12,644 nt of DNA from Spirochaetes bacterium RIFOXYC1_FULL_54_7 (GTDB taxonomy: Bacteria; Spirochaetota; Spirochaetia; Treponematales; UBA12059): the NCBI GenBank assembly GCA_001830645.1, contig MIBM01000081.1, positions 1-12,644 of the forward strand. Reading direction: 5' to 3'. Positions within the stretch are counted from its first letter, which is position 1. Every line of letters begins with the position of its first letter. The notes beneath the pieces are model-generated. The model was given only the letters and a program-made list of their open reading frames with translations, had not been told where the DNA came from and ran no database searches. The translations under genes and the position numbers were made by a program. Below, in pieces: positions 52 to 12,455 of this stretch.

Positions 52-54
52 GAT

Positions 55-471
55 TCAAGCCACCTGCTTTGCAGGTGGTTGTTGACTATCCTGACCCGCA
101 CGCGGCAGGAGCTGGGCTGACCCATGATCAAGATAGAAGACCTCAAAATCCGGATGATCACTTGTTTTGTAGATATTCCTTACGACGTCACTTTTGGCAA
201 GTATCTTCACTTTGACATCCACCTCATTTGTAAACTGCACGTTTCCCCGTAGGCGTAGTAGCCATGCTCCATGAGGGTCTGAGCAGGCGAATTCCATTGC
301 TGGATTATGTTTGAGTTGTTTGCATACTTCCTTCTTGTTGTTGGTGCTGAAGCACAACCTTCCTGCATCCTCAAGCATGAACTGGTATGGCCGTACTCGT
401 GGTTGTCCATCCTCGAGCGTTGCAAGAAAGCCATTGATGTTGGCATACAGGAAATCAGTCAAATCTTTCAC
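55..471 (-). CDS. Pyridoxamine 5'-phosphate oxidase-fold protein, NimA/NimC-like flavin-binding family
   Basis: This is a 138-residue single-domain protein of the split-barrel FMN-binding fold. The N-terminal pattern FLATLEDGQPRVRPYQF (about residues 15-31), followed by a strand with FSTNNKKEV (41-49), is typical of small PNPOx-like and NimA/NimC-type proteins, which bind flavin or haem and reduce or sequester small substrates. Actual substrate unknown. The start is GTG at 469-471, supported by a GGAGG sequence ending 6 nt upstream on the minus strand. It is divergent from the large operon and has its own promoter (538-566), overlapped by a 17-bp repeat that is also found at the operon promoter, so co-regulation is plausible. 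The last seven codons form a perfect 8-bp hairpin in the mRNA, which leaves a low-complexity tail (QPPAKQVA). Fold assignment is fairly sure; the function is not. Confidence 0.8.
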   Translation of the reverse strand: MKDLTDFLYANINGFLATLEDGQPRVRPYQFMLEDAGRLCFSTNNKKEVCKQLKHNPAMEFACSDPHGAWLLRLRGNVQFTNEVDVKVKILAKSDVVRNIYKTSDHPDFEVFYLDHGSAQLLPRAGQDSQQPPAKQVA

Positions 472-537
472 TTCAGTCCTCCGATCCTTTTATTCCAGCT
501 GGTGTATATTTTGTCATAATCGATTCTCTCTTTTCCG

Positions 538-566
538 AGTGTAGAGTGCATTGCATATATCGTCAA
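538..566 (-). promoter_or_regulatory. Sigma70-type promoter for the minus-strand NimA/NimC-like gene
   Basis: On the minus strand a TTGACG -35 box (561-566) is separated by exactly 17 nt from a TACACT -10 box (538-543). Transcription would start near 531 and give a leader of about 60 nt before the GTG start. The -35 box lies inside the first 17-bp repeat (555-571), so a bound repressor would block it. Seen by eye; 9 of 12 consensus positions match. Confidence 0.5.
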
Positions 567-571
567 TATAT
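555..571. promoter_or_regulatory. Putative operator, copy 1 of the 17-bp repeat
   Basis: ATATATCGTCAATATAT has 6-bp symmetric arms (ATATAT/ATATAT) around a 5-nt core. It differs at one base from the copy at 733-749. It covers the -35 box of the minus-strand promoter. The natural candidate to bind it is the GntR-family regulator encoded at 789, but this is inference. Confidence 0.45.
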
Positions 572-581
572 TAAAAGAATA

Positions 582-599
582 CTTGAAATATATTACAAG
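582..599. promoter_or_regulatory. Near-perfect 18-bp palindrome, putative operator
   Basis: CTTGAAATATATTACAAG is palindromic except for one mismatched pair. It sits between the two divergent promoters, 11 bp from repeat copy 1. Its inner 14 nt (TGAAATATATTACA) recur exactly at 12203-12216, and the partly complementary TGTAATATAT occurs at 729-738 beside repeat copy 2. Short palindromes of this size are typical of dimeric GntR-family regulators. Confidence 0.4.
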
Positions 600-696
600 C
601 TCTATGATTTTATACGACGGGGTTGCCAGTGTGAAAGATGCCCTGATACTTCTGGGATCTTTGATAATTCGATAAAATAAAAATTATAAATTCTTG

Positions 697-725
697 TTGA
701 CAGGAGATAAATACCGCAGGATAAT
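697..725 (+). promoter_or_regulatory. Sigma70-type promoter of the catabolic operon
   Basis: A perfect TTGACA -35 box (697-702) is followed by a 17-nt spacer and a GATAAT -10 box (720-725, five of six consensus bases). Transcription would begin near 732, leaving a leader of about 55 nt before the regulator gene. The predicted start point lies at the edge of the second 17-bp repeat (733-749), a position where a bound repressor would block initiation. An upstream alternative is TTGATA (661-666), 18 nt, TATAAA (685-690). Confidence 0.65.
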
Positions 726-732
726 AAGTGTA

Positions 733-749
733 ATATATCGCCAATATAT
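733..749. promoter_or_regulatory. Putative operator, copy 2 of the 17-bp repeat
   Basis: ATATATCGCCAATATAT matches the 555-571 copy at 16 of 17 positions. It lies immediately downstream of the -10 box of the operon promoter, over the expected transcription start. This placement suggests autorepression by the first gene of the operon, relieved by a pathway intermediate. The binding protein is inferred. Confidence 0.5.
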
Positions 750-788
750 CGGCTGGAAATTGAAATACTGGCAGAAAGGCTTCATGGC

Positions 789-1487
789 ATGGGTATATCG
801 TCGGCTCTCCTGGATAAGCATGGCCCTGCCAATAACATGAGTAAAAAGACCCAAGTGTATGAACTGTTGAAGAACCGTATTGTACATGATGAACTGAAGC
901 CCCAGCAATATCTGAATGAGCTGGATCTTTGTGAAGAGTTGGGCATCAGCAAAACCCCGGTACGTGAGGCCTTGCAGCATCTGGAACGGGATCGTTTGGT
1001 GGTCATTGTACCGAACAAGGGCTGTTTTGTGGCAAGCATCAGCCTTGACCTGATACGAGAAATATTCGAGATACGGGAGGTGTTTGAATGTGCCGCGGCA
1101 AGGTTTGCTGCGCGTATGTCGTCACGGAAACAGTTCGAGGAATTGCTGGATACTCACGAATCATTCAAGGCAATCGGTGATGCGGAGATCCGGCAAGCTT
1201 TGGTATCCGGCTACCAGATCCATCAGATAATTGTAGACGCATCAGGAAACAGCTTCCTGTCCTGGTACTACAATTCGATACTTTCACAGATTTTGCGTAT
1301 CCGTATTCATTTCCTCAGCCGGTTTGAATCCAGCAGGCTGCATGCAACCAGTGGTGAGCACCGGGCGATACTCAAGGCGATTATAGAAGGCAATGAAGAT
1401 GAAGCAGAGAAGGCTATGAGGGCGCACTTGGTCAATTCCCTCGTAAGTATAGGACACTTGATGCTCAGTAACAGGAAGGACTTATGA
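789..1487 (+). CDS. GntR family transcriptional regulator, FadR subfamily (FCD domain)
   Basis: This 232-residue protein is likely the local repressor or activator of the operon. It has a winged helix-turn-helix at about residues 22-85, with the family signature LCEELGISKTPVREALQHLE at 48-67, then an all-helical FCD ligand-binding domain at about 87-215. Three histidines in the positions of the FCD metal site are visible (His145, His191, His213). The aspartate expected four residues before the first histidine is not there (Gly141), so metal binding may be altered. FCD regulators usually sense organic acids or sugar acids. The start at 789 has an AAGG sequence ending 9 nt upstream; an internal ATG at 837 (MSKKTQ) would also fit the domain but lacks an obvious ribosome site. 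Its stop overlaps the next start (ATGA), which ties its expression to the catabolic genes. Probably binds the repeats in the upstream region. Confidence 0.93.
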   Translation: MGISSALLDKHGPANNMSKKTQVYELLKNRIVHDELKPQQYLNELDLCEELGISKTPVREALQHLERDRLVVIVPNKGCFVASISLDLIREIFEIREVFECAAARFAARMSSRKQFEELLDTHESFKAIGDAEIRQALVSGYQIHQIIVDASGNSFLSWYYNSILSQILRIRIHFLSRFESSRLHATSGEHRAILKAIIEGNEDEAEKAMRAHLVNSLVSIGHLMLSNRKDL

Positions 1488-2158
1488 CACACGTTTTAAA
1501 AGAAGCCAGTCCCATCGATGCAAAAACAATCGACGCATTCCGGAACCTTGATGTGGCGACCGTCTATGAGGCATCCGGCCGGAAGGGGTATGTGGAGAGT
1601 GCCATAAAACCGGCGTTTCCAGGAAACAGGATATGTGGACCAGCCTTTACGGTTCAATGCGCGCCAGGCGACAACCTGATGTTGCACAAAGCTCTGCAGC
1701 GTGCTCCTGCGGGTTGCGTGCTTGTAGCAAATGTCGGAGGTTTATACGAATATGGTTATTGGGGGGGGATGATGGCAGTAGCCGCCATGTCCCGCGGAAT
1801 AGCTGGTCTGGCGATTGATGGATGCATCCGTGATTCAGTAGAAATGGCAAAGATGGGTTTCAAGGTATTCTGCCGCGGATTCTCCATCCGGGGAACGGTT
1901 AAGACAAACCTTGGTCTTATCAACTATCCAGTTAATTTTGGACAGATGACGGTGTTTCCCGGAGACTTGATCCTTGGCGACGAGGATGGAATGGTCGTGG
2001 TTCGAGCCGAGGATGCAGAAGCCGTCCTGGAAAAGTCCCTGAAACGGGTTGCATTCGAAGAAGCAAAATCAGCCCAGCTCGCCAGTGGCGTTACAAGCGT
2101 TGAGCTCAACGATCTCGAGAAGGTGTTCGGGGCTTTGGGACTGGTCGAGGAGTACTGA
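1484..2158 (+). CDS. RraA family protein, 4-hydroxy-4-methyl-2-oxoglutarate/4-carboxy-4-hydroxy-2-oxoadipate aldolase-like
   Basis: A 224-residue protein of the RraA / class II pyruvate aldolase (HMG/CHA aldolase) family. Visible family features are YWGGMMAVAAMSRGIAG (about 92-108) and AIDGCIRDS (110-118), which supply Asp112, Arg116 and Asp117. In HMG/CHA aldolases the equivalent Arg and Asp bind the substrate and a divalent metal, and the enzymes cleave or decarboxylate 4-hydroxy-2-oxo acids. Such chemistry fits a sugar-acid pathway better than RNase E inhibition, the role of E. coli RraA. The protein is longer than RraA (about 160 residues) and of the length usual for the aldolase branch. 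The ATG overlaps the upstream stop by 4 nt and has AGGAAGG just before it. Codons for Trp93-Gly94-Gly95 form a run of eight G bases. Family sure; exact reaction open. Confidence 0.88.
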   Translation: MTHVLKEASPIDAKTIDAFRNLDVATVYEASGRKGYVESAIKPAFPGNRICGPAFTVQCAPGDNLMLHKALQRAPAGCVLVANVGGLYEYGYWGGMMAVAAMSRGIAGLAIDGCIRDSVEMAKMGFKVFCRGFSIRGTVKTNLGLINYPVNFGQMTVFPGDLILGDEDGMVVVRAEDAEAVLEKSLKRVAFEEAKSAQLASGVTSVELNDLEKVFGALGLVEEY

Positions 2159-2162
2159 TACC

Positions 2163-3215
2163 ATGAAAATCGCCAGGCAAAATCTGCTTGAAACAGCGCG
2201 TGCAATTCTAGTTGAACTGGGTGAGACCAAGGACAGTGCCGCTGTAGCTGCAGACTCCTTGGTCAGGGCTGATATGCGTGGTGTGAGCACCCATGGCATC
2301 AATCTGCTACGGCTTGTCGCTCAGCGTGTAGACGCGAAGATGCTGGAATTACCAACTCGTGTGACCAATGTTTCGGACTTTGGAGCGACGGCGGTGCTAG
2401 ACGGTAACAATGGGCTTGGTCAAGTAGCTGCATATCAAGCGCTGAAACTATGCATGAGCAAAGCGAGGCAATTTGGAATCGGGATGGTAAACCTCCGTAA
2501 TACCAACAATATCGGAGCACTTGGGTGTATCACCGGTGAAGCCGCCCGCCAGGGGCTGATTTCGATAATAATGACCAACGGGAATCCATCGGTTGCCCCC
2601 TTCGGAGCTGCAGAACCCTTCTTCGGAACGAATCCCATCTCGGTGGCGGTTCCCCGGGGTGCACTGGAACCATTGGTTCTGGACATGTCATCGAGTGTGG
2701 TAGCCCGGGGCAAGATCAGACTGGCCTCTCTGAGTGAAAAGGAAATTCCATTGGGCTGGGCCCTTGATCCAGAAGGGAATCAGACAACAGATCCAAAGAA
2801 AGCGCTGAAAGGTTGCCTGTTGCCGCTGGGAGGCCCCAAGGGCTCCGGCCTTGCCATGATGATAGATATCCTGTCCGGCATGCTCACTGGTTCAGCCTAT
2901 GGAGACAAACTCAGAAGCTTCCATGAACTGGATGGGCCAACCGGAGTAGGTGCTTCCTTCATCTGCATCGATGTGGCACGTTTTGTCGGGGTGGCGAACT
3001 TTGAACAAGCCGTTACAGAATATGCACAGCGGATCAAGGGATTACGGAGGCAGCCGGGATTCGAGGAGATCCTGCTTCCTGGCGAGTTCGAGACTCAGAA
3101 AGAACACGAAAGCAACGAGTCGGGCATTGATGTACCGGAAGCTATTGTCAAAGGCATTGACGAGATCTCCGCAAGGTTGGGGTGTTCCAGCCGCTTGGGA
3201 AGTATAGGGAGTTAG
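2163..3215 (+). CDS. Ldh_2 family NAD(P)-dependent malate/L-lactate (2-oxo acid) dehydrogenase
   Basis: A 350-residue protein of the Ldh_2 (type 2 malate/lactate dehydrogenase) family, which includes sulfolactate, ureidoglycolate and 2,3-diketo-L-gulonate (YiaK) dehydrogenases. It interconverts a 2-oxo acid and the 2-hydroxy acid. Family features: catalytic His44 in GVSTHG (40-45); LVLDMSSSVVARGKIRLA (171-188); IPLGWALDPEG (195-205); and LLPLGGPKGSGLAMMIDIL (219-237). The segment RNTNNIGALG (112-121) has Asn116 where most members have His (SNHxG), a possible change in substrate handling. The ATG at 2163 was chosen over upstream in-frame starts because it lies 4 nt after the previous stop, has GAGGAG 10 nt upstream, and begins the expected N-terminal helix. 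A polar tail follows residue 300. A Ldh_2 enzyme beside a TRAP transporter recalls the yia diketogulonate cluster. Confidence 0.9.
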   Translation: MKIARQNLLETARAILVELGETKDSAAVAADSLVRADMRGVSTHGINLLRLVAQRVDAKMLELPTRVTNVSDFGATAVLDGNNGLGQVAAYQALKLCMSKARQFGIGMVNLRNTNNIGALGCITGEAARQGLISIIMTNGNPSVAPFGAAEPFFGTNPISVAVPRGALEPLVLDMSSSVVARGKIRLASLSEKEIPLGWALDPEGNQTTDPKKALKGCLLPLGGPKGSGLAMMIDILSGMLTGSAYGDKLRSFHELDGPTGVGASFICIDVARFVGVANFEQAVTEYAQRIKGLRRQPGFEEILLPGEFETQKEHESNESGIDVPEAIVKGIDEISARLGCSSRLGSIGS

Positions 3216-3226
3216 GGAGTTGAATG

Positions 3227-4966
3227 ATGGACACTATAATACGGGTTGATACCAGGACAAGGCAGATCCACACCCTGACTGCCACTGAGGATGAAATGCG
3301 CTGGGGTGGCAGATCGCTGATAGCACATGTATTGCTGAAAGAGGTTCCGCCGAATTGTGAAGCGACCGGCCGGTACAACAAGCTTATCTTTGCATCTGGT
3401 TTGCTGGCGGATACAAATGTAACTACGACTGGCCAGATGTCGGTAGGTGGGAAAAGCCCCCTGACCGGAGGCGTCAAGGAGAGCAATGTAGGCGGCTGGG
3501 TTGGCAGGAAAATTGCCAAGCTCGGCATAAGGGCCTTGATAATAGAAGATACGCCGGACACAGCCAGAACTGATGTATTGGTTGTGCGTGCCAGTGGATA
3601 CGAGCTAGTCAGCATGCCGGAGCTAAAAGGCTTGCTGGTAAGCGATACCATTACCTCGCTGAGACAGCACTACGGCAAGTCTGTTGGAATACTCTGTATA
3701 GGTCCATCCGGTGAGATGATGATGTACGGCTCGGGGATTGCAACTCCAGACAACAACGATGTCCAGATAAGGTATGCAGCCAGAGGTGGTCTCGGCGCTC
3801 TTATGGGGTCCAAGGGAATCAAGGCAATTGTAGTTGATGATGCCGGTTCCGGGTATGCAATGCAGGCCTATGACAAAGCACTGCTGACTGAAACCTCAAA
3901 GTGGATGGCCGAAGCGCTCCTGGCAGATCCGAAGACCGAGAATAGAAACTTGTATGGCACGCCAGCCATCCTTGCTTTGGCAAACTCATCAGGTCTGTTG
4001 CCAACACGGAACTTCAGTTCGGGTAGCTTCGAGAAAGCTGATGACATCGCCGGTGAAAGGGTCAGGGAAGAAATCCTGTCCCGGGGTGGTGAAGGCCGTT
4101 CGAGTCAGGCTTGTGTTGCCGGTTGTGTGATCAAATGCAGTAATATCTTTCCTGACAAATCGGGTAAAAAACTCGTGGCCTCGATCCAGTACGAGAATAT
4201 TTCCTTGCTTGGTTCGAATTGTGGAATCGGAAGTCTTGATGACATAGCTGAAATGAATCATCTGTGCAACGAAGTTGGTGTCGATGCGATAGAAACCGGC
4301 GCGGCCATAGGCGTAGGCATGGAAGCGGGGATTATCCAGTTCGGTGACGCCGAAGGCGCCAAAAACCTTATCCGGCAAATAGGCCAGGGGACCTATCTAG
4401 GCAGGATACTGGGTAACGGCGCGCAGATCACCGGACGCTTGCTTGGTATCCGTCGAGTACCGGTTATCAAGGGACAGGCCATACCTGGTTATGATCCCCG
4501 GGGAGTCAAGGGCAATGGTGTTACCTATGTAACTTCGCCAATGGGTGCCGACCACACTGCAGGCAATGCCTTCGAGACTTTGAAGACCCTCGATCCATTG
4601 AAAGCTGATGGGCAGGTTGATAGTTCACGCAAGCTGCAAATCAGGGCTGCTCTCCTTGATACGCTTGGAGTCTGTCTCTTTGTCAGGCCTCCCTTTTTAA
4701 AGAGACCCGAGATGTTCGGCAAGCTTCTTGAAGGACGGTATGGATGGAAGATGGGTATCCCGGAAATCATCGCCCTGGCTTGGGATACCATCGCTACGGA
4801 GCGGGAATTCAACAGGCAGGCGGGAGTTTCGGAAGAGTTCTTCCCGATGCCGGAATTCATGCGTGATGAACCATTGCCACCCTTCAACGCGGTATTCGAT
4901 GTCCCCATGAAGGATATGCGCGCCATGTGGGACGGTTTCGATCCGGCCAGTTTGACGACTTTGTAG
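3227..4966 (+). CDS. Aldehyde:ferredoxin oxidoreductase family tungsten/molybdenum enzyme
   Basis: A 579-residue cytoplasmic AOR-family oxidoreductase, about the usual family length. Such enzymes oxidise aldehydes to carboxylates, or run in reverse, using a bis-pyranopterin W or Mo cofactor and a 4Fe-4S cluster that exchanges electrons with ferredoxin. Visible features: N-terminal GGRSLIAHVLL (27-37); ARGGLGALMGSKGIKAI (185-201); the cluster cysteines Cys296, Cys300 and Cys304 in ACVAGCVIKCSN, with the fourth, Cys483, in DTLGVCLF; DPRG (423-426); and GADHTAGN (440-447). The first cysteine pair is spaced CX3C rather than the CX2C of Pyrococcus AOR. ATG codons at 3224 and 3227 are both possible; 3227 gives 7-nt spacing from AGGGAG. 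Immediately upstream and downstream genes are tightly spaced. It may oxidise an aldehyde released by the pathway. Its presence implies anaerobic metabolism; no dedicated ferredoxin gene is in the window. Confidence 0.92.
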   Translation: MDTIIRVDTRTRQIHTLTATEDEMRWGGRSLIAHVLLKEVPPNCEATGRYNKLIFASGLLADTNVTTTGQMSVGGKSPLTGGVKESNVGGWVGRKIAKLGIRALIIEDTPDTARTDVLVVRASGYELVSMPELKGLLVSDTITSLRQHYGKSVGILCIGPSGEMMMYGSGIATPDNNDVQIRYAARGGLGALMGSKGIKAIVVDDAGSGYAMQAYDKALLTETSKWMAEALLADPKTENRNLYGTPAILALANSSGLLPTRNFSSGSFEKADDIAGERVREEILSRGGEGRSSQACVAGCVIKCSNIFPDKSGKKLVASIQYENISLLGSNCGIGSLDDIAEMNHLCNEVGVDAIETGAAIGVGMEAGIIQFGDAEGAKNLIRQIGQGTYLGRILGNGAQITGRLLGIRRVPVIKGQAIPGYDPRGVKGNGVTYVTSPMGADHTAGNAFETLKTLDPLKADGQVDSSRKLQIRAALLDTLGVCLFVRPPFLKRPEMFGKLLEGRYGWKMGIPEIIALAWDTIATEREFNRQAGVSEEFFPMPEFMRDEPLPPFNAVFDVPMKDMRAMWDGFDPASLTTL

Positions 4967-4975
4967 GAGTTGAAT

Positions 4976-5722
4976 ATGGAATTACAGGACAAGGTAGTAA
5001 TTGTAACTGGAGCCGGCTTGGGATTGGGAATGTCCATAACCCGGAAGGTATTTGAGGAAGGGGCCTCTGTAGCTCTTTGGGATATGAATCTGGAAGCAGC
5101 GCAAAAACTAGCCAAAGAACTTGATCCGGGCGGAATCAAGGTATTTGCCGTGAAGGTCAATGTTACCGATGAGGCTGATGTACAGCAAGCTGTCAGTCAG
5201 ACAGTAAAGAAGTTTGGTCGCATCGATGTGCTTGTAAACAACGCCGGTATCTCCCGCCATGAGACCTTGGAGAACATGACCCTGGAGTTGTTCGAACTGG
5301 TAATCAAGGTGAATCTGACAGGACCCTTTCTTTGCTGCAAATCAGTAGCTCCGGTCATGCGAAAACAGAAGTCCGGAAAGATAGTGAATATAGCCTCACT
5401 TGGTGGACGGACCGGGAGACCGGGGGTGGGTGTTAATTATGCCGCCTCAAAGGCGGGCCTGCTTGGAATCACCAAAGTACTGGCCAAGGAATTGGGGCCG
5501 GACAATATCTATGTGAATGCGATTTGTCCAGGACCAATACTGACGGACCAGACAAGGCAGTACCCGCCTGAGGTATTCGCAAGCTGGAACGCCGGTCGTG
5601 CTGTACCCAAGGACGGATTGCCTGAGGATATCGGAGATGTTGTGATATTTCTTGCATCGAACAGATCGGACTGGGTGACGGGGATCTCCCTGGACGTCAA
5701 TGGTGGCATTTTTATTGGGTGA
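4976..5722 (+). CDS. SDR family NAD(P)-dependent oxidoreductase
   Basis: A 248-residue classical short-chain dehydrogenase/reductase. The nucleotide-binding motif TGAGLGLG is at 11-18, NNAG at 88-91, the catalytic tetrad is Asn113, Ser141, Tyr155 and Lys159 (YAASK), and the C-terminal VNGG motif is at 241-244. Asp36 at the end of strand 2 (ALWDMN) favours NAD(H) over NADP(H). The overall pattern resembles FabG-like, gluconate 5-dehydrogenase and KduD-type sugar-acid dehydrogenases, so oxidation or reduction of a hydroxyl on a sugar acid or cyclitol is the likely role. The ATG at 4976 was chosen because GTAGGAG (overlapping the preceding stop) lies 6 nt upstream; a TTG at 4970 is in frame but too close to that site. 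Substrate not identifiable from sequence. Confidence 0.93.
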   Translation: MELQDKVVIVTGAGLGLGMSITRKVFEEGASVALWDMNLEAAQKLAKELDPGGIKVFAVKVNVTDEADVQQAVSQTVKKFGRIDVLVNNAGISRHETLENMTLELFELVIKVNLTGPFLCCKSVAPVMRKQKSGKIVNIASLGGRTGRPGVGVNYAASKAGLLGITKVLAKELGPDNIYVNAICPGPILTDQTRQYPPEVFASWNAGRAVPKDGLPEDIGDVVIFLASNRSDWVTGISLDVNGGIFIG

Positions 5723-5750
5723 TACCCGAAAGTGGGAAGGAGAAGATGGA

Positions 5751-6110
5751 ATGGCAGGTTTGAAAGTAGTAGACATGAACAAGGTGGTACCCGAGCGAAA
5801 GGATCCGCCCCGGGCCTCATGGATTCTGATCTCGGAAAAAACCGTCGGCGCCCAGAATCTGGCGCTTGGTGTGAACGAGACGGAACCGGGTTCCATGGTG
5901 CCAGAACATATCCATGAGACCGAGGAAGAAGTGATGCTCTTCCTGGAAGGGCAGGGGAAATTCATAACCGCCGACCAGGAAATTGAGCTCAAACCGGGGA
6001 TTTGTGTCTACAACCCGCCAGGTGCCAGGCATCAGATCGTAAATACCGGAACTACGAAGCTCAAGTTCGTATGGGTCTATGCGCCGCAACTCAAGAGTCA
6101 CAGGCTCTAG
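5751..6110 (+). CDS. Single-domain cupin protein
   Basis: A 119-residue monocupin. Both conserved cupin motifs fit the classical pattern: motif 1 starts at Gly47 with His53, His55 and Glu60, closing at Gly67; motif 2 starts at Gly83 with Pro89 or Pro90, Gly91, His94 and Asn98. His53, His55, Glu60 and His94 form a complete metal site, so an active isomerase, epimerase, lyase or dioxygenase-like role is possible; a small-molecule-binding role is the alternative. The start at 5751 has AAGGAG 8 nt upstream; an in-frame ATG at 5700 would overlap the SDR gene and has no ribosome site. It lies between the SDR and the creatininase-family genes in the same operon, suggesting that it acts on an intermediate of the same pathway. 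Confidence 0.88.
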   Translation: MAGLKVVDMNKVVPERKDPPRASWILISEKTVGAQNLALGVNETEPGSMVPEHIHETEEEVMLFLEGQGKFITADQEIELKPGICVYNPPGARHQIVNTGTTKLKFVWVYAPQLKSHRL

Positions 6111-6130
6111 CTGCAAGAAAGGAGTGAACG

Positions 6131-7093
6131 ATGTCGGAATGGAAATTCCCCCAGGAAGGCCAGATGGACAAGCCTTCCAAAATCTACTTCCAGACAATGA
6201 CAAAGTTTGATGTAGAGGAACGACTGAAGAAAAATGACGTGATCCTTATCCCGATAGGCTCGACCGAGAACCATGGAGCAGCCGGTCCATACGGTGAGGA
6301 TACCTTTATTGTGACCCGCATCGCCGAGATGGTAGCCAAAAAGACCGGTTGTACCGTCGCAATGCCCATGTGGTACGGGTCTCATCCCTTCCACCATATA
6401 GGTCAGCCAGGCACAGTCCCTCTCCCTGACGATGTCTTCATGGCCCACCTGCGGTCGATGATTTCTGGTTTCTGGAATACTGGCTTCCGCAAGCAGATTT
6501 TCATGAGCATGCATGGACAGGAATATGCACTGCCATCAGCCATACAGGAATGGGGCAAGAAATACCAGGTTCCTGCGATGGTTATGTTCGTTGATCTACC
6601 AAGAATCATGGCCAAGGACTTGATGGACAAGGCCCACGGTGGACCCTTTGAAACTCCATTCCAGCATGCAGATGAAGCGGAACAATCGATCTCGATGGCG
6701 CTATTCCCTGAACTATGCCAGCCGGAGCATGCCGAAGACACAAGCATCAAGGGCTTCTTGCCCCCAGGGCATGTAGACCGGGGTGGAGATATTTACGGAA
6801 ATCCCATACCAGGACATTGCATAATCGGTGGAACGGGCATCGAGTGTGTAACCTTCCCTGAAGGAGTTCTGGGCAAGGCCACGCTCGCCGATCCTGCCAA
6901 AGCAACCAAAGCCATCGAGAATGTACTCAATTACCTGGTTAAATTGCAGGGTGATATCCTTGAACGCTTCCCTGTCGGGAAGCTGCCCGAGGGAAGGCTG
7001 ATGAGCCAGAGGGATCCTGCTGAAATTGAAGCCCTGCTTAAGGGCCCGTTGAATGGTGGCAAGCACCTGTACACGATAGCTTGGCCTAGTTGA
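6131..7093 (+). CDS. Creatininase-family hydrolase, probable 3-dehydro-scyllo-inosose hydrolase (IolN-like)
   Basis: A 320-residue member of the creatininase (creatinine amidohydrolase) fold family. Family landmarks are PIGSTENHG (41-49, ligands Glu46 and His48), GEDT with Asp57, SMHGQE with His128, and HADEAEQS (179-186, Glu182 and Glu184). These are the expected dinuclear metal ligands, except that the usual NGHGGN loop reads SMHGQE, so Glu131 may replace a ligand. It is longer than creatininase (about 260 residues), with an N-terminal extension and a C-terminal helical tail. I associate this N-terminal pattern, length and neighbourhood (Zn-dehydrogenase, TIM-barrel epimerase) with IolN of the Thermotoga-type inositol pathway, which opens diketo-inositol to 5-keto-L-gluconate. 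Another ring-opening hydrolase of a cyclic amide or ketone is the alternative. AAAGGAG precedes the ATG by 6 nt. Confidence 0.82.
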   Translation: MSEWKFPQEGQMDKPSKIYFQTMTKFDVEERLKKNDVILIPIGSTENHGAAGPYGEDTFIVTRIAEMVAKKTGCTVAMPMWYGSHPFHHIGQPGTVPLPDDVFMAHLRSMISGFWNTGFRKQIFMSMHGQEYALPSAIQEWGKKYQVPAMVMFVDLPRIMAKDLMDKAHGGPFETPFQHADEAEQSISMALFPELCQPEHAEDTSIKGFLPPGHVDRGGDIYGNPIPGHCIIGGTGIECVTFPEGVLGKATLADPAKATKAIENVLNYLVKLQGDILERFPVGKLPEGRLMSQRDPAEIEALLKGPLNGGKHLYTIAWPS

Positions 7094-7096
7094 GTA

Positions 7097-7128
7097 CTCC
7101 CTTGCGGGAGGGCTCCCCTTGTGGGGAG
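7097..7128 (+). promoter_or_regulatory. Tandem hairpins before dctP
   Basis: Two adjacent perfect hairpins lie in the 70-nt gap after the creatininase-family gene: CTCCC-TTGC-GGGAG (7097-7110) and CTCCCC-TTGT-GGGGAG (7113-7128). No T run follows directly, so they are unlikely to be a full terminator. They may protect or delimit a processed dctP transcript, or attenuate read-through. The strong AGGAGG site for dctP lies 22 nt further on. Confidence 0.45.
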
Positions 7129-7163
7129 ATATGTCAAGGTTCCTTGTTTTAGGAGGCAGTTCG

Positions 7164-8192
7164 ATGAAAAAGTTACTTTTGATTGTCTGCATGATTGCAG
7201 TCGTTGCATCCGCTGCATTTGGTCAAGCTAGGGTATTTGAACTGAAGCTTGCCCATGCCGACCCCATTGATGTGGCCACATCACGCAAGCATGCACAGGC
7301 AGTTGCCTTTGCATCACTGGTCAACGCTCGTTCGGGTGGTCGTATCAATGTAAAGGTTTATGGCGCTGGAGCTCTTGGTGCGGAACGAGAGTATGTGGAA
7401 GCCGTAAAGCTTGGCACCATCCAGTCTGGTATTGCATCAGGGGTCATTGCCAACTTCTTCCCCTCGGCCATGGTTACCGACATCCCATTCCTGTTTCCAT
7501 CATCCCAGGTTGCCTGGCAGGTAATGGACGGACCCTTTGGACAGGCTTTGTCCAAGGCTTTCCTGAAAGAAACCGGCATGCGCAACCTGGCTTTTGCGGA
7601 GGTTGGATTCCGGAACTTCACCAATAATGTGCGTCCGATCAAGTCACCTGCCGACATGAAGGGTTTGAAGATCCGTGTACAGGAAACCCCTCTCTACGTC
7701 ACCATGGTCAAGGCACTTGGTGCCAATCCTACTCCGATTGCCTGGACTGAGACCTATACTTCCCTCCAGACCAAGGTAGTGGATGGCCAGGAGAATCCTG
7801 TTCCCACCATTCTGATGGCTAAATTGCACGAAGTACAGAAGTATATAACTCTGGACGGCCATGTGTACGGAGTTGACTGGTTTATAATCAATGAGAAATT
7901 CTTCCAGAGCCTCCCGGCCGACCTCCAGTACGTTGTCCTTGATTCAGCTCAGATAGCGTCGGGTGTAGGGCGTGGTGTTTCACAGTTGATTTCAGCCCAA
8001 GGTGTGCAGATTCTTGTTGACAGTGGCAATGAAGTCTACGTGCCTACCGAAGTAGAACTTGAACTGTTCAGGAAAGCCACCCAGCAGCCGGTAATTGACT
8101 GGCTCAAGACCAAGATAGACCAGAAGCTTATCAACGATGCCCTGGCTGCGGTTAACCAGGTGGTAGCTGCCCAGAAAGCATCACTGAAGTAA
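7164..8192 (+). CDS. dctP: TRAP transporter substrate-binding protein, DctP family
   Basis: The periplasmic solute receptor of a TRAP transporter, 342 residues with its signal peptide. Residues 1-20 form a Sec signal (KK, then LLLIVCMIAVVASAAFG), with cleavage probably near Ala17-Gln21. The DctP core is recognisable from ELKLAHADP (26-34), AEVGFRNFTNN (145-155), DMKGLKIRVQE (164-174) and the TYTSLQTKVVDGQENP segment (197-212). Arg171 is at the position of the conserved arginine that salt-bridges a carboxylate in most DctP proteins, so the imported compound probably carries a carboxylate (sugar acid, keto acid). The start at 7164 is preceded by a strong AGGAGG at 7 nt and gives a proper signal peptide; the frame is open further upstream. 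Hairpins flank the gene on both sides, consistent with separate, higher expression of the receptor. The DctPQM naming is by family only. Confidence 0.95.
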   Translation: MKKLLLIVCMIAVVASAAFGQARVFELKLAHADPIDVATSRKHAQAVAFASLVNARSGGRINVKVYGAGALGAEREYVEAVKLGTIQSGIASGVIANFFPSAMVTDIPFLFPSSQVAWQVMDGPFGQALSKAFLKETGMRNLAFAEVGFRNFTNNVRPIKSPADMKGLKIRVQETPLYVTMVKALGANPTPIAWTETYTSLQTKVVDGQENPVPTILMAKLHEVQKYITLDGHVYGVDWFIINEKFFQSLPADLQYVVLDSAQIASGVGRGVSQLISAQGVQILVDSGNEVYVPTEVELELFRKATQQPVIDWLKTKIDQKLINDALAAVNQVVAAQKASLK

Positions 8193-8206
8193 ACCAGTTT
8201 CAGGTT

Positions 8207-8231
8207 GACAACCGGATGAATAGTGGTTGTC
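8207..8231 (+). repeat. Inverted repeat after dctP
   Basis: GACAACC (8207-8213) pairs with GGTTGTC (8225-8231) around an 11-nt loop, 14 nt after the dctP stop. It precedes the stronger hairpin at 8245-8273. On its own it is weak; together they give the dctP transcript a structured 3' flank. Confidence 0.35.
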
Positions 8232-8244
8232 GATCACATGTATT

Positions 8245-8273
8245 GCGGGTTCCAGTTCGTGGCTGGAACCCGC
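8245..8273 (+). promoter_or_regulatory. Strong intercistronic hairpin between dctP and dctQ
   Basis: GCGGGTTCCAG and CTGGAACCCGC form a perfect 11-bp stem with a 7-nt loop. A T run (gattttttgg, 8289-8298) begins too far downstream for a standard intrinsic terminator. In many receptor-dependent transporters such a hairpin stabilises the receptor mRNA or attenuates transcription, so that the receptor is made in excess of the membrane subunits. That role is inferred here. Confidence 0.55.
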
Positions 8274-8382
8274 TGGATACTGTTGCTTGGGATTTTTTGG
8301 TAATTGTTCAAAAGGTCCTGGAAATTTCTGTCAAGCAATGTGTTTGGCATCACAAGAATGGGCAATCGAAGGAGGTTCGGTG

Positions 8383-8895
8383 GTGAAAACCATTAAGCAA
8401 CGGCCCAGGATCATTCTTGCATTGGAATCGTGTATAGAATGGATCCTGTGTTTTATCGTCGGAATCATGGTAGTCAATGTAGCCGCCGGAGTATTCTTCC
8501 GTTATGTGCTTCAGAATTCGCTTTCATGGACCGAGGAACTTGGACGTTATCTCATGATCTGGATGGGTTACCTTGGTGCTGTCCTGGCTATGAAGGAAGG
8601 TTCGCATGTAGGGATAACTTCCTTTATTGCGCTGTTTCCACCCGTATTACGCAGAGCGCTTGAGGTTCTAGCCAGCATGATTGTACTGGCCTTCCTTGGT
8701 ATCGTTTTGGTGAAATCATTCTCACATCTGGAATCCCTGTCCATACAGCGTTCAAGCGCAATGGAGCTTCCCATGGTGTTTCCTTACCTAGCGGTAACCG
8801 TGGGTGTGTTCCTTATGGCAATAGAGACCTTGATGGTCATCCTGGGCTTCCGCTGGGAGCCAGAATCAACTGGTGAAGGGAAGCAGGGTATTTGA
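8383..8895 (+). CDS. dctQ: TRAP transporter small permease subunit, DctQ family
   Basis: The small integral membrane subunit of the TRAP transporter, 170 residues. Four hydrophobic segments are visible at about 16-37, 52-70, 92-112 and 131-153. The segment FRYVLQNSLSWTEELGRYL (39-57) is the family hallmark. It pairs with DctM to form the sodium-dependent membrane complex. The start is GTG at 8383, with AAGGAGG 7 nt upstream; the adjacent GTG at 8380 is too close to that site. The reading frame is open for 156 nt further upstream, but that part covers the intercistronic hairpin and encodes no transporter-like sequence. The gene ends directly against dctM with no gap. Confidence 0.93.
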   Translation: MKTIKQRPRIILALESCIEWILCFIVGIMVVNVAAGVFFRYVLQNSLSWTEELGRYLMIWMGYLGAVLAMKEGSHVGITSFIALFPPVLRRALEVLASMIVLAFLGIVLVKSFSHLESLSIQRSSAMELPMVFPYLAVTVGVFLMAIETLMVILGFRWEPESTGEGKQGI

Positions 8896-10176
8896 ATGTT
8901 GCTATCGGTAATTGCATTCATAGTATTTCTTTTGTTGGGCGTCCCCATAGCATTCAGTCTTGGTTCTGCCAGTGTTGTTTTCCTGCTATTGAAGGAGATA
9001 CCGCTAGGTCTTATCGCCCAACGGCTTTTTACCGGGATTGATGTCTTTCCTTTCATGGCAATTCCATTCTTTGTGCTGGCTGGTGAATTGATGAATGGAG
9101 CTGGAATAACCAAGCGACTTGTAAGCCTGGCCAATGTGTTTGTTGGCAGGATGAAGGGTGGGCTTGGGCAGGTCAATATCGTGACCTCCATGTTCTTTGC
9201 CGGGATAACTGGTTCTGCTGTAGCCGATACTTCCGCCATAGGTTCCATGCTCATTCCTGCGATGATTGAAGAAGGCTTTGATGATGACTTCAGTGCCGCT
9301 GTCACCTGTTCATCCTCTGTCATTGGTCCGATAATTCCACCAAGCATACCCATGGTCATCTATTCCCTGGTCAGTTCCACTTCGATCGCTGCTTTGTTTC
9401 TCGCTGGCATGATCCCAGGTATCCTGCTCGGGTTCAGCTTGATGGTGGTTAACTGGATCATATCCACCAAACGCAATTATCCGCGGGCAGATAGATGGCC
9501 AACTTTCAGGGAAATGTTTGCTGCCGGAGTGCATGGAATAATTCCCATGATGATGCCATTGATCATACTTGGCGGTATCCTGCTTGGTGTGTTCACTGCT
9601 ACGGAAGCTTCCGCGGTTGCGGTGGTATATGCCCTGGTGATCGGACTCTTTGTGTACCGCAAACTTGACTGGAAAACCATCAAGGGGGCCTTTCTCGTTA
9701 CTGCCAAGACCAGTGGAGTGGTATTCCTGGTGATTGCCGCTTCAAATGTATTCAACTGGTCACTTGTGGTAGAAGAAGTTCCGGTGCGCATGGCCTTGTT
9801 CGTTTCTGAGATCTTTACAAATAGGTATACCCTGCTGCTTGCAATCAATGTGGTCCTTCTCATTGTTGGAACCTTCATGGAGGGAACAGCAGCTATCATC
9901 ATTCTGGTTCCGATATTGATACCGATAACAGCACCATTTGGTATAGATCCTGTAATGCTCGGTGCAATCGTCGTCTTGAACCTGATGATCGGGCTTATTA
10001 CGCCTCCGGTAGGCTTGTGTCTTTATGTGGTGTGCGGGATTACCAAGCTCTCGATTGAACGGGTATCCAAGGCCGTGCTTCCATTCCTGGCTGCGGAGAT
10101 AGTCACTCTGTTGCTGGTAACGTACATCGAGCCTCTTTCAATGTTCCTGCCACGATTGTTCGGCTATGTACAATGA
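8896..10176 (+). CDS. dctM: TRAP transporter large permease subunit, DctM family
   Basis: The large membrane subunit of the TRAP transporter, 426 residues, the usual family length, made almost entirely of hydrophobic helices. Family landmarks include FPFMAIPFFVLAGELM (51-66), FFAGITGSAVADTSAIGS (100-117), GPIIPPSIPM (144-153) and, in the second half, NLMIGLITPPVGLCLYV. The repeated GxITG / PP loop pairs reflect the inverted-repeat architecture of the ion transporter superfamily; these loops form the sodium and substrate sites. The ATG follows the dctQ stop directly, with AGGG 7 nt upstream. The stop overlaps the start of the following epimerase gene by 4 nt. It carries no clue to the substrate beyond what the receptor gives. 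Confidence 0.96.
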   Translation: MLLSVIAFIVFLLLGVPIAFSLGSASVVFLLLKEIPLGLIAQRLFTGIDVFPFMAIPFFVLAGELMNGAGITKRLVSLANVFVGRMKGGLGQVNIVTSMFFAGITGSAVADTSAIGSMLIPAMIEEGFDDDFSAAVTCSSSVIGPIIPPSIPMVIYSLVSSTSIAALFLAGMIPGILLGFSLMVVNWIISTKRNYPRADRWPTFREMFAAGVHGIIPMMMPLIILGGILLGVFTATEASAVAVVYALVIGLFVYRKLDWKTIKGAFLVTAKTSGVVFLVIAASNVFNWSLVVEEVPVRMALFVSEIFTNRYTLLLAINVVLLIVGTFMEGTAAIIILVPILIPITAPFGIDPVMLGAIVVLNLMIGLITPPVGLCLYVVCGITKLSIERVSKAVLPFLAAEIVTLLLVTYIEPLSMFLPRLFGYVQ

Positions 10177-10994
10177 TGGGTAAACAGATGACAAGAATAA
10201 GACTGAGTTGCTTTGGCTATATCAAAGACCTGGATGATATTGCAGCAGCGGGATATGACTGCGCCGAGTTGCATATACGTGAAATCATGGGCTTTGATGA
10301 TGGGGAGTATAAAAATGCTCTCGGCCAACTTAAAGCATGTGGCATTCCCGCTGAAGTTTTTGACAATCCTATACCTTTGGATTCACATGTATCGGATGCT
10401 TCCTTTGACCTTTCATTTTACCGGGATTTCCTGTACAGAGCTACCGATAGGTGTGCAAGGATGGGGGCACGGTATTTTGTATTCGGCAATGGGAAGGCAC
10501 GCAGCCTGCCGGTTGAGGGTGATATACATGGGGCAACAAAGAAGTTCGATGACTTCTTCAATATGCTCCTTGATATTACAGCTGAATATGATATCACTAT
10601 ACTGATAGAGCCGCTCGGCAAGAAGCTTTCCAATATAGTGAACAACCTGCCGGAGGCTGTCGGGTTCATCAAGAAATTCGGCAAACCCAATCTGAAGACC
10701 TTTATTGACTACCGATACATGGTGGAACTCGGCAGACCTCTGGACGAGATTTCTGAATACAAATCCTATATAAAACATGTTCATCTGGACAACCCGCTGA
10801 CTGTGTTCCCGGAAAGGGTTGTGCCAAGATTGGATGATGGTTTTGATTATTCACCATTCCTGGATGCACTCAAGGCAATTGATTATAAAGGTATTATTTC
10901 AGTGGAGGCTTCTGTCTTCAAGGATTTCCATTCGGAGATTCGTGACGGCTTGCGCTTCTTCGAGGCGCACGGCATAAGGCCTGCCATCGGGTAA
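10173..10994 (+). CDS. Xylose isomerase-like TIM-barrel sugar epimerase/isomerase
   Basis: A 273-residue AP-endonuclease-2 / xylose-isomerase-like TIM barrel. The four metal ligands of D-tagatose 3-epimerase-type enzymes are all present: Glu146 (ILIEPLG), Asp179 (FIDYRY), His204 (HVHLDN) and Glu245 (SVEAS). It should therefore be an active Mn/Mg-dependent epimerase or isomerase of a free keto-sugar or keto-sugar acid. A precedent that fits the neighbours is IolO, which converts 5-keto-L-gluconate to D-tagaturonate in the Thermotoga-type inositol pathway; identity with IolO is not shown. The ATG at 10173 overlaps the dctM stop (ATGA); ATG codons at 10176 and 10188 are also in frame and there is no clear ribosome site, so translation probably depends on coupling. 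The codon use appears somewhat more AT-rich than that of its neighbours. Confidence 0.88.
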   Translation: MMGKQMTRIRLSCFGYIKDLDDIAAAGYDCAELHIREIMGFDDGEYKNALGQLKACGIPAEVFDNPIPLDSHVSDASFDLSFYRDFLYRATDRCARMGARYFVFGNGKARSLPVEGDIHGATKKFDDFFNMLLDITAEYDITILIEPLGKKLSNIVNNLPEAVGFIKKFGKPNLKTFIDYRYMVELGRPLDEISEYKSYIKHVHLDNPLTVFPERVVPRLDDGFDYSPFLDALKAIDYKGIISVEASVFKDFHSEIRDGLRFFEAHGIRPAIG

Positions 10995-11006
10995 AGGGGA
11001 AGTTAT

Positions 11007-12038
11007 ATGAAAGCTCTTGTTTATCACGGACCACGGGACTTGCGTTATGAGGAAGTTGTTACACCTGAGCCAAAGGTTGGGGAAGTGCTGGTCAAAGTAC
11101 GCGCTGTTTCCATTTGCGGATCCGATCTCTCAGGATACAAAGGCGGTTCTGCAATGCGTGTGCCTCCGCTGATCATGGGGCATGAATTTTCAGGTGAGAT
11201 AGCCGCACTGGGCAAAGATGTTGCAGGAGTAAGGGTAGGTCAACGAGTCGTGGTGGTTACAAACCTTTACTGTGGCATCTGCCAGGATTGCAAGGATGGA
11301 TTGCAGAATGTCTGCGACAATCGCTACATCATCGGCACGACCATGAAGGCTGGCAGTTACAATGGAGCCATGGCAGATTATGTAATTGCTCCTGCTGAAA
11401 AAATCATGGCTCTACCCGACAATGTATCCTTCAACGAATGTGCCTTGGTAGAACCCCTTTCGATATCCCTCCGAGCCACCAAGCATATTGGTACTCTGAC
11501 AGGAAAAACCATTGCAGTATTTGGCGCAGGTCCTATTGGTCTCATGGGTATCATGTGTCTGAAGGCCTTTGGCGCTGCAAGGATCATCGCTGTGGATGTC
11601 CTTGACAACCGGCTTGAGATGGCCAGGCAATGTGGTGCCACTGATGGCGTGAGCTCAAAAGGCGATGTAGTGTCTGAGATCAGGAAGTTGACTGGCGGGC
11701 TTGGTGTAGATGTGGTTTTTGATGCTGCGGGAGTTGCAGCCACCGTAAACACAGGGATAGAGATAGTCCGCAATGGTGGAACGATCATGCTTGTGGGAAT
11801 GGCTACACCTGTCATGGAAATAGAGTACAAGCATGCGGTAGTCAAGGAACTGAAACTGCTTACCAGCTATATGTACACTACAGAGATGCGGGAAGGCCTC
11901 CAGATGATCATAGATAGTAAACTCGATGTCAAACGGATGATAAGTTCAGTGTTGCCTATGTCTGATGGCCCCAGGATTTTCGAGGAATTAGCCTCAGGCA
12001 ATAGTTCTGAAATCAAGGTTATTTTGACCAATGGCTAA
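11007..12038 (+). CDS. Zinc-dependent alcohol dehydrogenase family protein (polyol/inosose dehydrogenase-like)
   Basis: A 343-residue medium-chain dehydrogenase of the sorbitol/threonine/galactitol dehydrogenase branch. Catalytic zinc ligands are visible as Cys37 (ICGSD), His59-Glu60 (GHE) and Glu149 (VEP). The structural zinc site is complete: Cys89, Cys92, Cys95 and Cys103. The Rossmann motif GAGPIG is at 173-178, and Asp197 at the end of strand 2 points to NAD. Likely reaction: oxidation of a secondary alcohol on a polyol, cyclitol or sugar acid. In the Thermotoga-type inositol pathway an enzyme of this class, IolM, makes the diketo-inositol that IolN opens, which would link this gene to the one at 6131. 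L-threonine or galactitol-type dehydrogenation is the alternative. It is the last gene of the operon; AAAGGGGAAG precedes the ATG. No clear terminator follows. Confidence 0.92.
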   Translation: MKALVYHGPRDLRYEEVVTPEPKVGEVLVKVRAVSICGSDLSGYKGGSAMRVPPLIMGHEFSGEIAALGKDVAGVRVGQRVVVVTNLYCGICQDCKDGLQNVCDNRYIIGTTMKAGSYNGAMADYVIAPAEKIMALPDNVSFNECALVEPLSISLRATKHIGTLTGKTIAVFGAGPIGLMGIMCLKAFGAARIIAVDVLDNRLEMARQCGATDGVSSKGDVVSEIRKLTGGLGVDVVFDAAGVAATVNTGIEIVRNGGTIMLVGMATPVMEIEYKHAVVKELKLLTSYMYTTEMREGLQMIIDSKLDVKRMISSVLPMSDGPRIFEELASGNSSEIKVILTNG

Positions 12039-12455
12039 GGTAATCAGCTGTGAAGTCATACATCACAAGCAAGGTGTTTATCCTTAGTCCTGATCTTAAA
12101 CAGAACATCTGAAAGGCAAATTATCTTAAGTTGATTGTTTATTGAACTGCCAAGATTGCTTTGTAACCTGGCAGTAATATTTGCAGGGTGCAGGCTTGTC
12201 CATGAAATATATTACAGGTATACCGCATGGGCGATGTATTGCTTTCAATGGGAGTGGGCACCACGGGGGTGGGCAAGCACAGATCGGAGGTGAGAAGAAT
12301 TCAATCACTAAAAGTGTCGGGAAGCAGGAGCGTACTTCAAGCACGGGAAAGGGATCGTAATCAAACATGAATCCCATATACCGGGTCGAGGGTTTCCGTT
12401 TGTGACCACGGAATCATATCATTCGATAGTCCAATCCATTGAGGGGGAAACAGCT
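12039..12455. other. Intergenic region after the operon
   Basis: About 417 bp without a convincing gene. A weak inverted repeat (CTGCCA 12147-12152 and TGGCAG 12169-12174, 16-nt loop) is the only terminator-like structure and lacks a T run. TGAAATATATTACA at 12203-12216 repeats a sequence from the divergent promoter region. A short + strand frame (12202-12360, 52 codons) and a minus-strand frame (12126-12377) both lack ribosome sites and look non-coding. GTGGGCA occurs twice (12254-12260, 12269-12275). Confidence 0.55.
12203..12216. repeat. Second copy of the TGAAATATATTACA motif
   Basis: These 14 nt are identical to 584-597, the centre of the palindrome in the operon's upstream region. Here the outer arms are not conserved, so the dyad is weaker. 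It could be an operator for the lipoprotein transcript or chance in AT-rich DNA. Confidence 0.3.

Follow-up and report, generated by a model that had tools for sequence, protein, structure and literature searches.

A conserved spirochaete operon predicted to catabolise quinate/shikimate-type acids without oxygen

What does a bacterium degrade with an operon that combines an acid-type importer, an aldehyde:ferredoxin oxidoreductase (AOR), an RraA-like aldolase and a hydrolase named after inositol breakdown? The twelve-gene operon in question is real and occupies positions 789..12038 of the window, a 12,644-nucleotide stretch (contig MIBM01000081.1, positions 1 to 12,644) of the draft genome of Spirochaetes bacterium RIFOXYC1_FULL_54_7 (GCA_001830645.1; G000 below), from the spirochaete order Treponematales. 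We propose that it is an inducible operon for the oxygen-independent catabolism of quinate, and of shikimate via 3-dehydroshikimate and 3-dehydroquinate, a reading that we hold to be fairly probable. A substrate of the class of quinate/shikimate-type hydroaromatic acids is likely and moderately supported; the order of steps is less so, and the exact route via 4-carboxy-4-hydroxy-2-oxoadipate (CHA) has about an even chance of being right. The genes are as follows.

789..1487, + strand, GntR/FCD regulator (PF00392, PF07729)
1484..2158, + strand, RraA-like protein, predicted CHA aldolase forming pyruvate and oxaloacetate (NF006731, PDB 3noj)
2163..3215, + strand, Ldh_2 family 2-hydroxyacid dehydrogenase, predicted maker of the CHA 2-oxo group (PF02615, 373.8 bits)
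3224..4966, + strand, AOR (AFOR_N, AFOR_C)
4970..5722, + strand, SDR dehydrogenase with a TTG start, predicted ring oxidation (PF13561)
5751..6110, + strand, small cupin (Cupin_2, PF07883), predicted ketol-aldehyde isomerase
6131..7093, + strand, IolN-like hydrolase of the creatininase family, predicted 3,5-diketone ring opener (NF041098)
7164..8192, + strand, DctP, TRAP substrate-binding protein (PF03480, TIGR00787)
8380..8895, + strand, DctQ, start approximate (PF04290)
8896..10176, + strand, DctM (PF06808)
10173..10994, + strand, TIM-barrel epimerase (AP_endonuc_2, PF01261), not IolO, predicted to act beside a ring ketone
11007..12038, + strand, zinc-dependent dehydrogenase ZnDH-a, predicted ring oxidation (PF08240, PF00107)

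The intergenic gaps range from -4 to 181 nt (in gene order -4, 4, 8, 3, 31, 20, 67, 181, 0, -4 and 12 nt; four of the starts used sit 3-6 nt from listed start codons, and those gaps shift equally). For the regulator, a start at 789 is possible and one at 837 more likely. A first-pass annotation made from the letters of the window had described twelve co-directional genes of these families with short gaps or overlaps, which Pfam and the coordinates confirm. It had also regarded them as one operon, to be doubted if the genes rarely co-occurred elsewhere; the comparison was run, and they do occur together. The operon is beyond chance because the order RraA-Ldh_2-AOR-(SDR)-cupin-IolN recurs in many distant genomes. 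The core (RraA, Ldh_2, AOR, SDR, cupin, IolN-like hydrolase and TRAP) is present in spirochaetes, Clostridia and Atribacteria, with a variant form in a planctomycete (L046). Gene content, conservation, co-occurrence and replacements are direct observations. The functional unit probably extends past 12038, because a cassette of dehydroquinases and a second TIM-barrel protein (TIM2) on the same contig seems to be part of it.

How could these proteins consume quinate or shikimate? We infer the substrate, each reaction and their order as follows. The TRAP system would import the acid, as TRAP systems import acids. The zinc enzyme and the SDR would oxidise the ring, taking quinate to 3-dehydroquinate and, by one further oxidation, to a 4-hydroxy-3,5-diketone, the direct analogue of 3-dehydro-scyllo-inosose. 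IolN hydrolyses the same hydroxyl-between-diketone motif in inositol breakdown (the IolM/IolN steps), and the IolN-like metal hydrolase could open the ring by a retro-Claisen reaction to HOOC-CH2-C(OH)(COOH)-CH2-CO-CH2OH, which would be CHA except that its end carbon still lacks two oxidation steps. The cupin would turn the ketol end into a hydroxyaldehyde, AOR (or aldehyde dehydrogenase, ALDH, elsewhere) would oxidise the aldehyde to an acid and pass the electrons to ferredoxin, Ldh_2 would oxidise the 2-hydroxyl to complete CHA, and the RraA-like aldolase would split CHA into pyruvate and oxaloacetate. The downstream dehydroquinases would connect shikimate to the route. By arithmetic, the conversion of quinate to pyruvate and oxaloacetate balances as C7H12O6 + 2 H2O = C3H4O3 + C4H4O5 + 8 H, and its four oxidations compare with exactly four redox enzymes in the window operon. 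The gene order RraA, Ldh_2, AOR, SDR, cupin, IolN is approximately the reverse of the proposed steps, with the SDR out of place.

Which evidence names the substrate? The strongest outside clue is the linkage to dehydroquinases, which names dehydroquinate and dehydroshikimate. The window's contig (18.6 kb) carries two tandem type II dehydroquinases at 16786-17708 and TIM2 at 17721-18506, a cassette that begins 4.7 kb past the operon and outside the window (positions 4786-6506 of locus L054). Both dehydroquinases exceed the cut-off of the aroQ model TIGR01088 (198.8 and 174.7 bits, cut-off 169.85). The sugar derivative that the first-pass annotation had expected is not supported: dehydroquinases adjoin the cluster, on the window's contig as elsewhere, and they and the CHA-aldolase assignment indicate quinate/shikimate-type hydroaromatic acids instead. 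Between operon and cassette (L054 508-4271) lie apparently unrelated genes for an SLH/metallo-beta-lactamase-fold protein, a NicO-type transporter and a DUF1007 protein.

As a less biased test, 241 genomes of the same order were searched for the hydrolase, AOR and type II dehydroquinase. The hydrolase was matched at E <= 1e-80 in 8 genomes, type II dehydroquinase in 31 and AOR at E <= 1e-100 in 13 (6 at at least 65% identity, one a fragment, and 7 at 37-43%). A tandem dehydroquinase pair was found in eight genomes (G000, G004, G030, G033, G052, G090, G099 and G118), all of which hold the operon or part of it; G004 and G052 have no hydrolase match, and their GntR-RraA-Ldh_2-AOR genes are cut off by the end of the contig (L125, L128). 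Counted the other way, the operon or part of it occurs in nine of the 241 genomes, eight of them with the pair; in the ninth, G019, a fragment of a dehydroquinase adjoins TIM2 where the contig ends (L131). The pair was not found in the other 232 genomes of the order, and the association has a Fisher p of 3.6e-14 with relatedness ignored. The 232 include G093, which has a 50% identical hydrolase in another context (L126) and two dehydroquinase genes ~9 kb apart, not in tandem. G090 and G099, which lack an AOR match at E <= 1e-100, have ALDH near the dehydroquinases (L027, L130); the AOR piece of G052 also fails this threshold.

The cassette is divergent and next to GntR in L029, L055 and L128, follows the operon on the same strand in the window genome, L026, L027, L049 and L050, and lies upstream in L047. 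In five genomes (G033, G058, G059, G065 and G066) a type I dehydroquinase and a shikimate dehydrogenase domain are encoded elsewhere in one frame of 485-508 amino acids (in G033 on the operon's contig, ~12 kb past the operon), and the cluster's pair is therefore spare for catabolism. Clusters with an HMG-CoA-lyase-like protein (HMGL type; L032, L033, L035, L036, L037 and L043) contain a type I dehydroquinase, and the four HMGL-type genomes searched (G060-G063) have two, one in the cluster and one elsewhere. Planctomycete locus L046 shows a weaker type I similarity, with two type I matches in the genome. The first type II copy has the usual catalytic residues. TIM2 has Ser or Ala for the Asp ligand, and its last Glu is replaced (or unaligned, in L026), in 12/12 sequences. 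The trio at 16786-18506 thus comprises a canonical type II dehydroquinase, a paralogue without the catalytic His and TIM2; that two degenerate active sites are kept together suggests new chemistry or a non-catalytic complex.

Do the companions of the hydrolase fit the proposed steps? A scan of species genomes gave 29 loci (64-95% identity) in spirochaetes, Clostridia, Atribacteria, a planctomycete and Proteiniphilum, which with the window and L055 make 31. In a 398-genome sample of the phylum of Faecalicatena faecalis (genome G060, locus L032), 26 genomes gave 34 hydrolase matches at E <= 1e-80, 7 at 73-76% identity and 27 at 50-59%; two of the seven (G060 = L032, G071 = L044) were already included, and the other five (L162-L166) bring the total to 36. 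These loci were chosen via the hydrolase and therefore show its companions, not how often the other genes occur alone. The same query had no match in plasmids at E 1e-20.

Across the 36 loci, genes replace one another in a pattern. AOR occurs in 21 and ALDH in 4 (L027, L039, L046 and L053), never together, and in L039 ALDH occupies exactly the AOR slot. HMGL-like proteins occur in 6 loci and CitE/CitF-like proteins in 1 (L038), leaving 4 with none of these (L028, L030, L050 and L051), of which all except L030 are truncated upstream by the end of the contig. RraA and Ldh_2 are found in the same 20 loci. The cupin is present in 26 loci and missing from all 7 loci of the HMGL and Cit types. The SDR (at least 59% identity) and a zinc dehydrogenase, ZnDH-b (at least 49%), each occur in 14 loci and never in the same one; the different SDR of L030, 36% SDR matches in L036 (10 kb away) and L038 and a 22% HMGL match in L162 were not counted. 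ZnDH-a occurs in 16 loci and the TIM barrel in all 16, plus L034, where the contig ends. There are three cleavage modules: RraA; an HMG-CoA-lyase-like protein (Pfam HMGL-like, under the NCBIfam cut-off); and CitF over with CitE-like below the cut-off. Each of the three suits a tertiary hydroxy acid resembling citrate. HMGL clusters could manage with two zinc dehydrogenases, the hydrolase and the lyase (quinate + H2O = oxaloacetate + hydroxyacetone + 4 H), and the joint absence of cupin, AOR/ALDH, Ldh_2 and RraA there is therefore the best internal support for the step order. The HMGL type rests on few independent cases, because L032, L033 and L035-L037 are close relatives; L033 is from Faecalicatena orotica and L035 from Hespellia stercorisuis, both cultured. 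A BaiCD-like OYE flavoenzyme and an MFS transporter accompany all six HMGL-type clusters (by profile scan in L032 and by similarity in the others). In L038 (1405-7173), genes for a DASS-type transporter (marginally under its cut-off), a CitE-like protein, CitF and an SDR come after the IolN-like gene, possibly a citrate-lyase-like third cleavage module; its DASS transporter and a TAXI-TRAP system in L042 are further acid-type transporters.

The assignments of the individual proteins are consistent with this chemistry. The RraA-like protein passes the CHA aldolase/oxaloacetate decarboxylase model NF006731 (192.9 bits, cut-off 179) and falls short of the LigK model TIGR02798 (180.5, cut-off 304.5). 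Its best PDB match is 3noj, named CHA aldolase, whose Arg-Asp pair (R123-D124, presumably of functional importance) is kept in the window protein and in 17/17 relatives. Ldh_2 has malate, sulfolactate and ureidoglycolate dehydrogenases as PDB neighbours. AOR contains AFOR_N and AFOR_C, a Cx3Cx3C motif in 15/15 relatives aligned there and a later Cys in 14/14, four residues that we take to be cluster-binding, and its best PDB matches are 9mqx, 9g7j and 1aor. Its predicted role in ferredoxin-linked aldehyde oxidation gains indirect support from the ALDH replacement elsewhere. The cupin has a conserved His/Glu motif. The TIM barrel keeps the metal ligands E-D-H-E, and its nearest folds are the 3-keto-glucoside 4-epimerase YcjR and ketose 3-epimerases. 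The first-pass annotation had predicted an imported carboxylate, ring opening by the IolN-like enzyme, cleavage by the RraA-like enzyme and aldehyde oxidation by AOR; each of these is supported as a prediction, with TRAP as the importer and ALDH standing in for AOR in other genomes. Its comparison with the yia diketogulonate cluster does not survive, as Ldh_2 scores far under the cut-off of the YiaK-type model NF009750 (3-dehydro-L-gulonate 2-dehydrogenase; 164.6 bits, cut-off 316).

Is the hydrolase an inositol enzyme? It scores 523.3 bits on the IolN model NF041098 (cut-off 245), and the IolN part of the IolM/IolN/IolO correspondence that had been noted for the operon thus stands; the other two parts fall away, with 197.4 bits for the zinc dehydrogenase on IolM (NF041097, cut-off 450) and 46.7 for the TIM barrel on IolO (NF041099, cut-off 300). 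The AlphaFold model (pLDDT 85.3) matches creatininase-family chains in 26/26 PDB hits (E <= 0.001; TM-score by target length 0.73-0.80). The metal-ligand positions of creatininase, as we take them to be, align with E46, H48, D57 and H128 of the hydrolase, the position of E122 being Gln130. The lower-identity hydrolases reveal other contexts, read in 15 stretches covering 16 of the 27 matches. L178, L179 and L181 (50-53%) have IolM-like and IolO-like neighbours, and L171 and L172 (51-56%) have an IolO-like one. In L178 and L179 the zinc dehydrogenase scores 524.8 and 522.6 on IolM, the TIM barrel 294.0 and 388.6 on IolO and the hydrolase 544.6 and 564.8 on NF041098. The same model gives 563 in tricarboxylate-transporter cluster L170 and 304 in L056, and cannot by itself separate the clades, because it scores the L178, L179 and L170 hydrolases at 544.6-564.8. 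The IolN label spans several contexts and is probably over-applied. L167-L170, L174-L176 and L180 (56-59%) form a sister cluster in Bacillota with at least one of AOR, cupin and Ldh_2 and no RraA; it is probably a related carboxylate pathway, and the scanned L169/L170 contain tricarboxylate transporter parts, CoA-transferase subunits, fumarase, malic enzyme and a PrpR-type activator. L173 has a distant AOR (28%) and an iron alcohol dehydrogenase only, and L177 has no AOR, cupin, Ldh_2, RraA, IolM-like or IolO-like neighbour.

A variant inositol route is nevertheless the obvious competitor, in which the hydrolase would open 3-dehydro-scyllo-inosose to 5-keto-L-gluconate, cupin, AOR and Ldh_2 would convert this to a 2-keto-aldarate and the RraA-like enzyme would cleave it. 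The hydrolase is far above the IolN cut-off, the cupin-AOR-Ldh_2-hydrolase set could chemically also handle 5-keto-gluconate, and the zinc dehydrogenase and TIM barrel belong to the same superfamilies as IolM and IolO. Taken alone, the IolM cut-off does not decide the matter: in L056 (hydrolase 40% identical, with transporter genes that read as an ABC sugar importer) a zinc dehydrogenase of just 198.1 bits on IolM stands beside a TIM barrel of 307.1 on IolO, over its cut-off. However, the window misses both cut-offs by a wide margin, and the real IolM/IolO clusters L178 and L179 carry a hydrolase only 52-53% identical to the window's. Moreover, 39 positions are fixed differently (>93%; one is a gap in the L056 clade) between 121 window-clade and 120 L056-clade sequences, some beside the metal-ligand motif (126 and 130-132, around H128). 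An inositol route would have no use for dehydroquinases or a CHA-type aldolase, and TRAP imports acids. True inositol clusters thus look different from the window cluster, as judged by these profiles and alignments. Since the IolM/IolO cut-offs failed and the true IolM/IolO neighbours belong to another hydrolase clade, we rejected the inositol pathway as first choice and regard its variant as unlikely; the first-pass view that this is not the standard inositol route is supported.

The same chemistry could also serve another hydroaromatic or cyclitol carboxylate, such as a quinate epimer, dihydroshikimate or a hydroxylated cyclohexane carboxylate, with the dehydroquinases as a side entry. The TIM barrel, which accompanies ZnDH-a in 16/16 loci, resembles an epimerase acting next to a ketone, and 19/36 loci have no dehydroquinase in view; the dehydroquinase linkage points to dehydroquinate/dehydroshikimate, and we consider this alternative improbable. 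Could the dehydroquinases be mere neighbours for biosynthesis, beside an operon for an open-chain sugar acid? No other dehydroquinase was found in G000, an assembly 72.6% complete. Against this stand the separate type I fusion in five related genomes and a duplicated pair that remains with the operon although its position shifts (on either side, co-directional or divergent). An open-chain acid would also give a ring-opening hydrolase nothing to do, and we hold this reading to be very unlikely.

Several observations weigh against the quinate/shikimate reading. The NCBIfam name of the hydrolase is 3-dehydro-scyllo-inosose hydrolase. A dehydroquinase is in reach in 17/36 loci (10 type II, the window's contig counted, and 7 type I) and absent from the stretch examined in 19/36, including the five Bacillota clusters L162-L166, many of the others ending at contig edges. 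The second dehydroquinase copy lacks the catalytic His, which we take to be His101 of the M. tuberculosis enzyme, in 11/11 loci (Phe in 10, Thr in 1). The position of 3noj D102, an important residue of that enzyme, is Gly in the window RraA; among 17 relatives it is Gly in 10, Asp in 6 (for example that of L034) and Asn in 1. No firm role can be given to TIM or TIM2. L045 and L047-L049 carry an extra Gfo/Idh/MocA enzyme, so that the dehydrogenase count is not fixed, and L031 has no ring dehydrogenase within 10 kb downstream. In L030 the hydrolase, SDR and ZnDH adjoin galactarate genes; the neighbours there are a galactarate dehydratase and DHDPS-family, MOFRL glycerate-kinase-like and 3-hydroxyisobutyrate-dehydrogenase-type proteins, and the contig ends soon after. 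A galactarate route was rejected, galactarate genes being seen only in L030 among the 36 loci, in which unlabelled neighbours were not all scanned.

How does the proposed quinate/shikimate route compare with known systems? Like the Thermotoga-type inositol pathway (IolG/IolM/IolN/IolO), it would use two ring oxidations to a 2-hydroxy-1,3-diketone and C-C hydrolysis by a creatininase-family enzyme. In contrast to that pathway, the window operon misses the IolM and IolO cut-offs, has no IolG (no Pfam of a Gfo/Idh/MocA inositol 2-dehydrogenase in the twelve genes) and combines TRAP, dehydroquinases and a CHA-type aldolase. The last step of protocatechuate 4,5-cleavage uses a LigK/GalC-type CHA aldolase, and the predicted reaction here, in which an RraA-fold aldolase would cleave CHA to pyruvate and oxaloacetate, resembles it, whereas here CHA would come from an alicyclic acid with no aromatic ring, dioxygenase or oxygen; no ring-cleaving dioxygenase was found among the twelve genes or the scanned downstream proteins. 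Aerobic quinate/shikimate catabolism proceeds through quinate dehydrogenase, dehydroquinase and dehydroshikimate dehydratase to protocatechuate. The oxidation of quinate to dehydroquinate and a catabolic dehydroquinase would be shared with it, but the ring would be opened before aromatisation, and no protocatechuate-cleaving gene occurs among the genes scanned. In the anaerobic phloroglucinol pathway of Clostridium scatologenes, the enzyme DPGC is Mn-dependent, belongs to the 'cyclase' family and has isatin hydrolase as its closest characterised homologue (PMC10470551). Both systems would have an anaerobe open a cyclic 1,3-diketone with a metal-dependent hydrolase, whereas the window hydrolase has the creatininase fold. 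A phloroglucinol-type cyclohydrolase was rejected for the window, as it belongs to a different protein family.

No published description of such a pathway was found in the open-access library searched. The novelty lies in the combination, not in the protein families. We somewhat favour an undescribed route, free of oxygen and CoA, in which the substrate would never be aromatised: a ring 1,3-diketone would be opened by hydrolysis and processed via CHA with electrons to ferredoxin. The route would be modular and spread over several phyla, with SDR/ZnDH-b, AOR/ALDH, RraA/HMGL-like/citrate-lyase-like and type I/type II dehydroquinase as interchangeable modules, and much of what databases call IolN would not be an inositol enzyme. 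Few plant acids are as abundant as the esters of quinate and shikimate. Specialists that ferment 'hydroaromatic compounds', Ilyobacter insuetus and Propionivibrio limicola, were reportedly described in 2002, and we know of no gene-level pathway for them. If our proposal is true, the operon offers named candidate enzymes for anaerobic hydroaromatic fermentation, AOR acquires a role in a pathway independent of sugars, at least three gene contexts share the NCBIfam label '3-dehydro-scyllo-inosose hydrolase', and water, not oxygen, opens the six-carbon ring of plant acids in oxygen-avoiding bacteria.

How might the operon be controlled? Three features precede the regulator gene.

555..571, no strand, operator-like palindrome ATATATCGTCAATATAT, a perfect match to ATATATYGNCRATATAT
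697..725, + strand, promoter-like TTGACA-17-GATAAT, sigma-70-like, 11/12 positions
733..749, no strand, second operator-like palindrome, a match to ATATATYGNCRATATAT, directly 3' of the -10 element

The promoter that had been called good does show TTGACA-17-GATAAT with 11/12 positions, but the window as a whole has 18 such sites against 14.6 expected, not clearly above chance. The palindromes are better evidence. The 17-bp ATATATYGNCRATATAT has exactly two copies in the window (0.01 expected by chance), and the place of the second just past the -10 element would be as for a repressor. In L026, L029, L055, L125 and L128 the related GntR gene is likewise preceded by copies with 0-2 mismatches. 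Scanning the plus strand of 127 kb from eight loci with at most 2 mismatches gave 8 occurrences, all upstream of GntR in six loci (the window and these five); none was found in L047 or L049, the latter starting inside or at GntR. In L029, L055 and L128 the site lies between the divergent dehydroquinase cassette and the GntR operon. A shared operator is not claimed for the window's own cassette, where the only site, with 2 mismatches (chance 0.1 at the threshold used), lies ~470 bp before the first dehydroquinase and next to the start of a gene on the other strand.

The window has no excess of terminator-like sites (9 against 11.0 expected) and no matches to RNA families or tRNAs. Two further genes flank the operon within it: a PNPOx-like gene at 55-471 on the - strand and the open start of a reading frame at 12402 that has no Pfam match.

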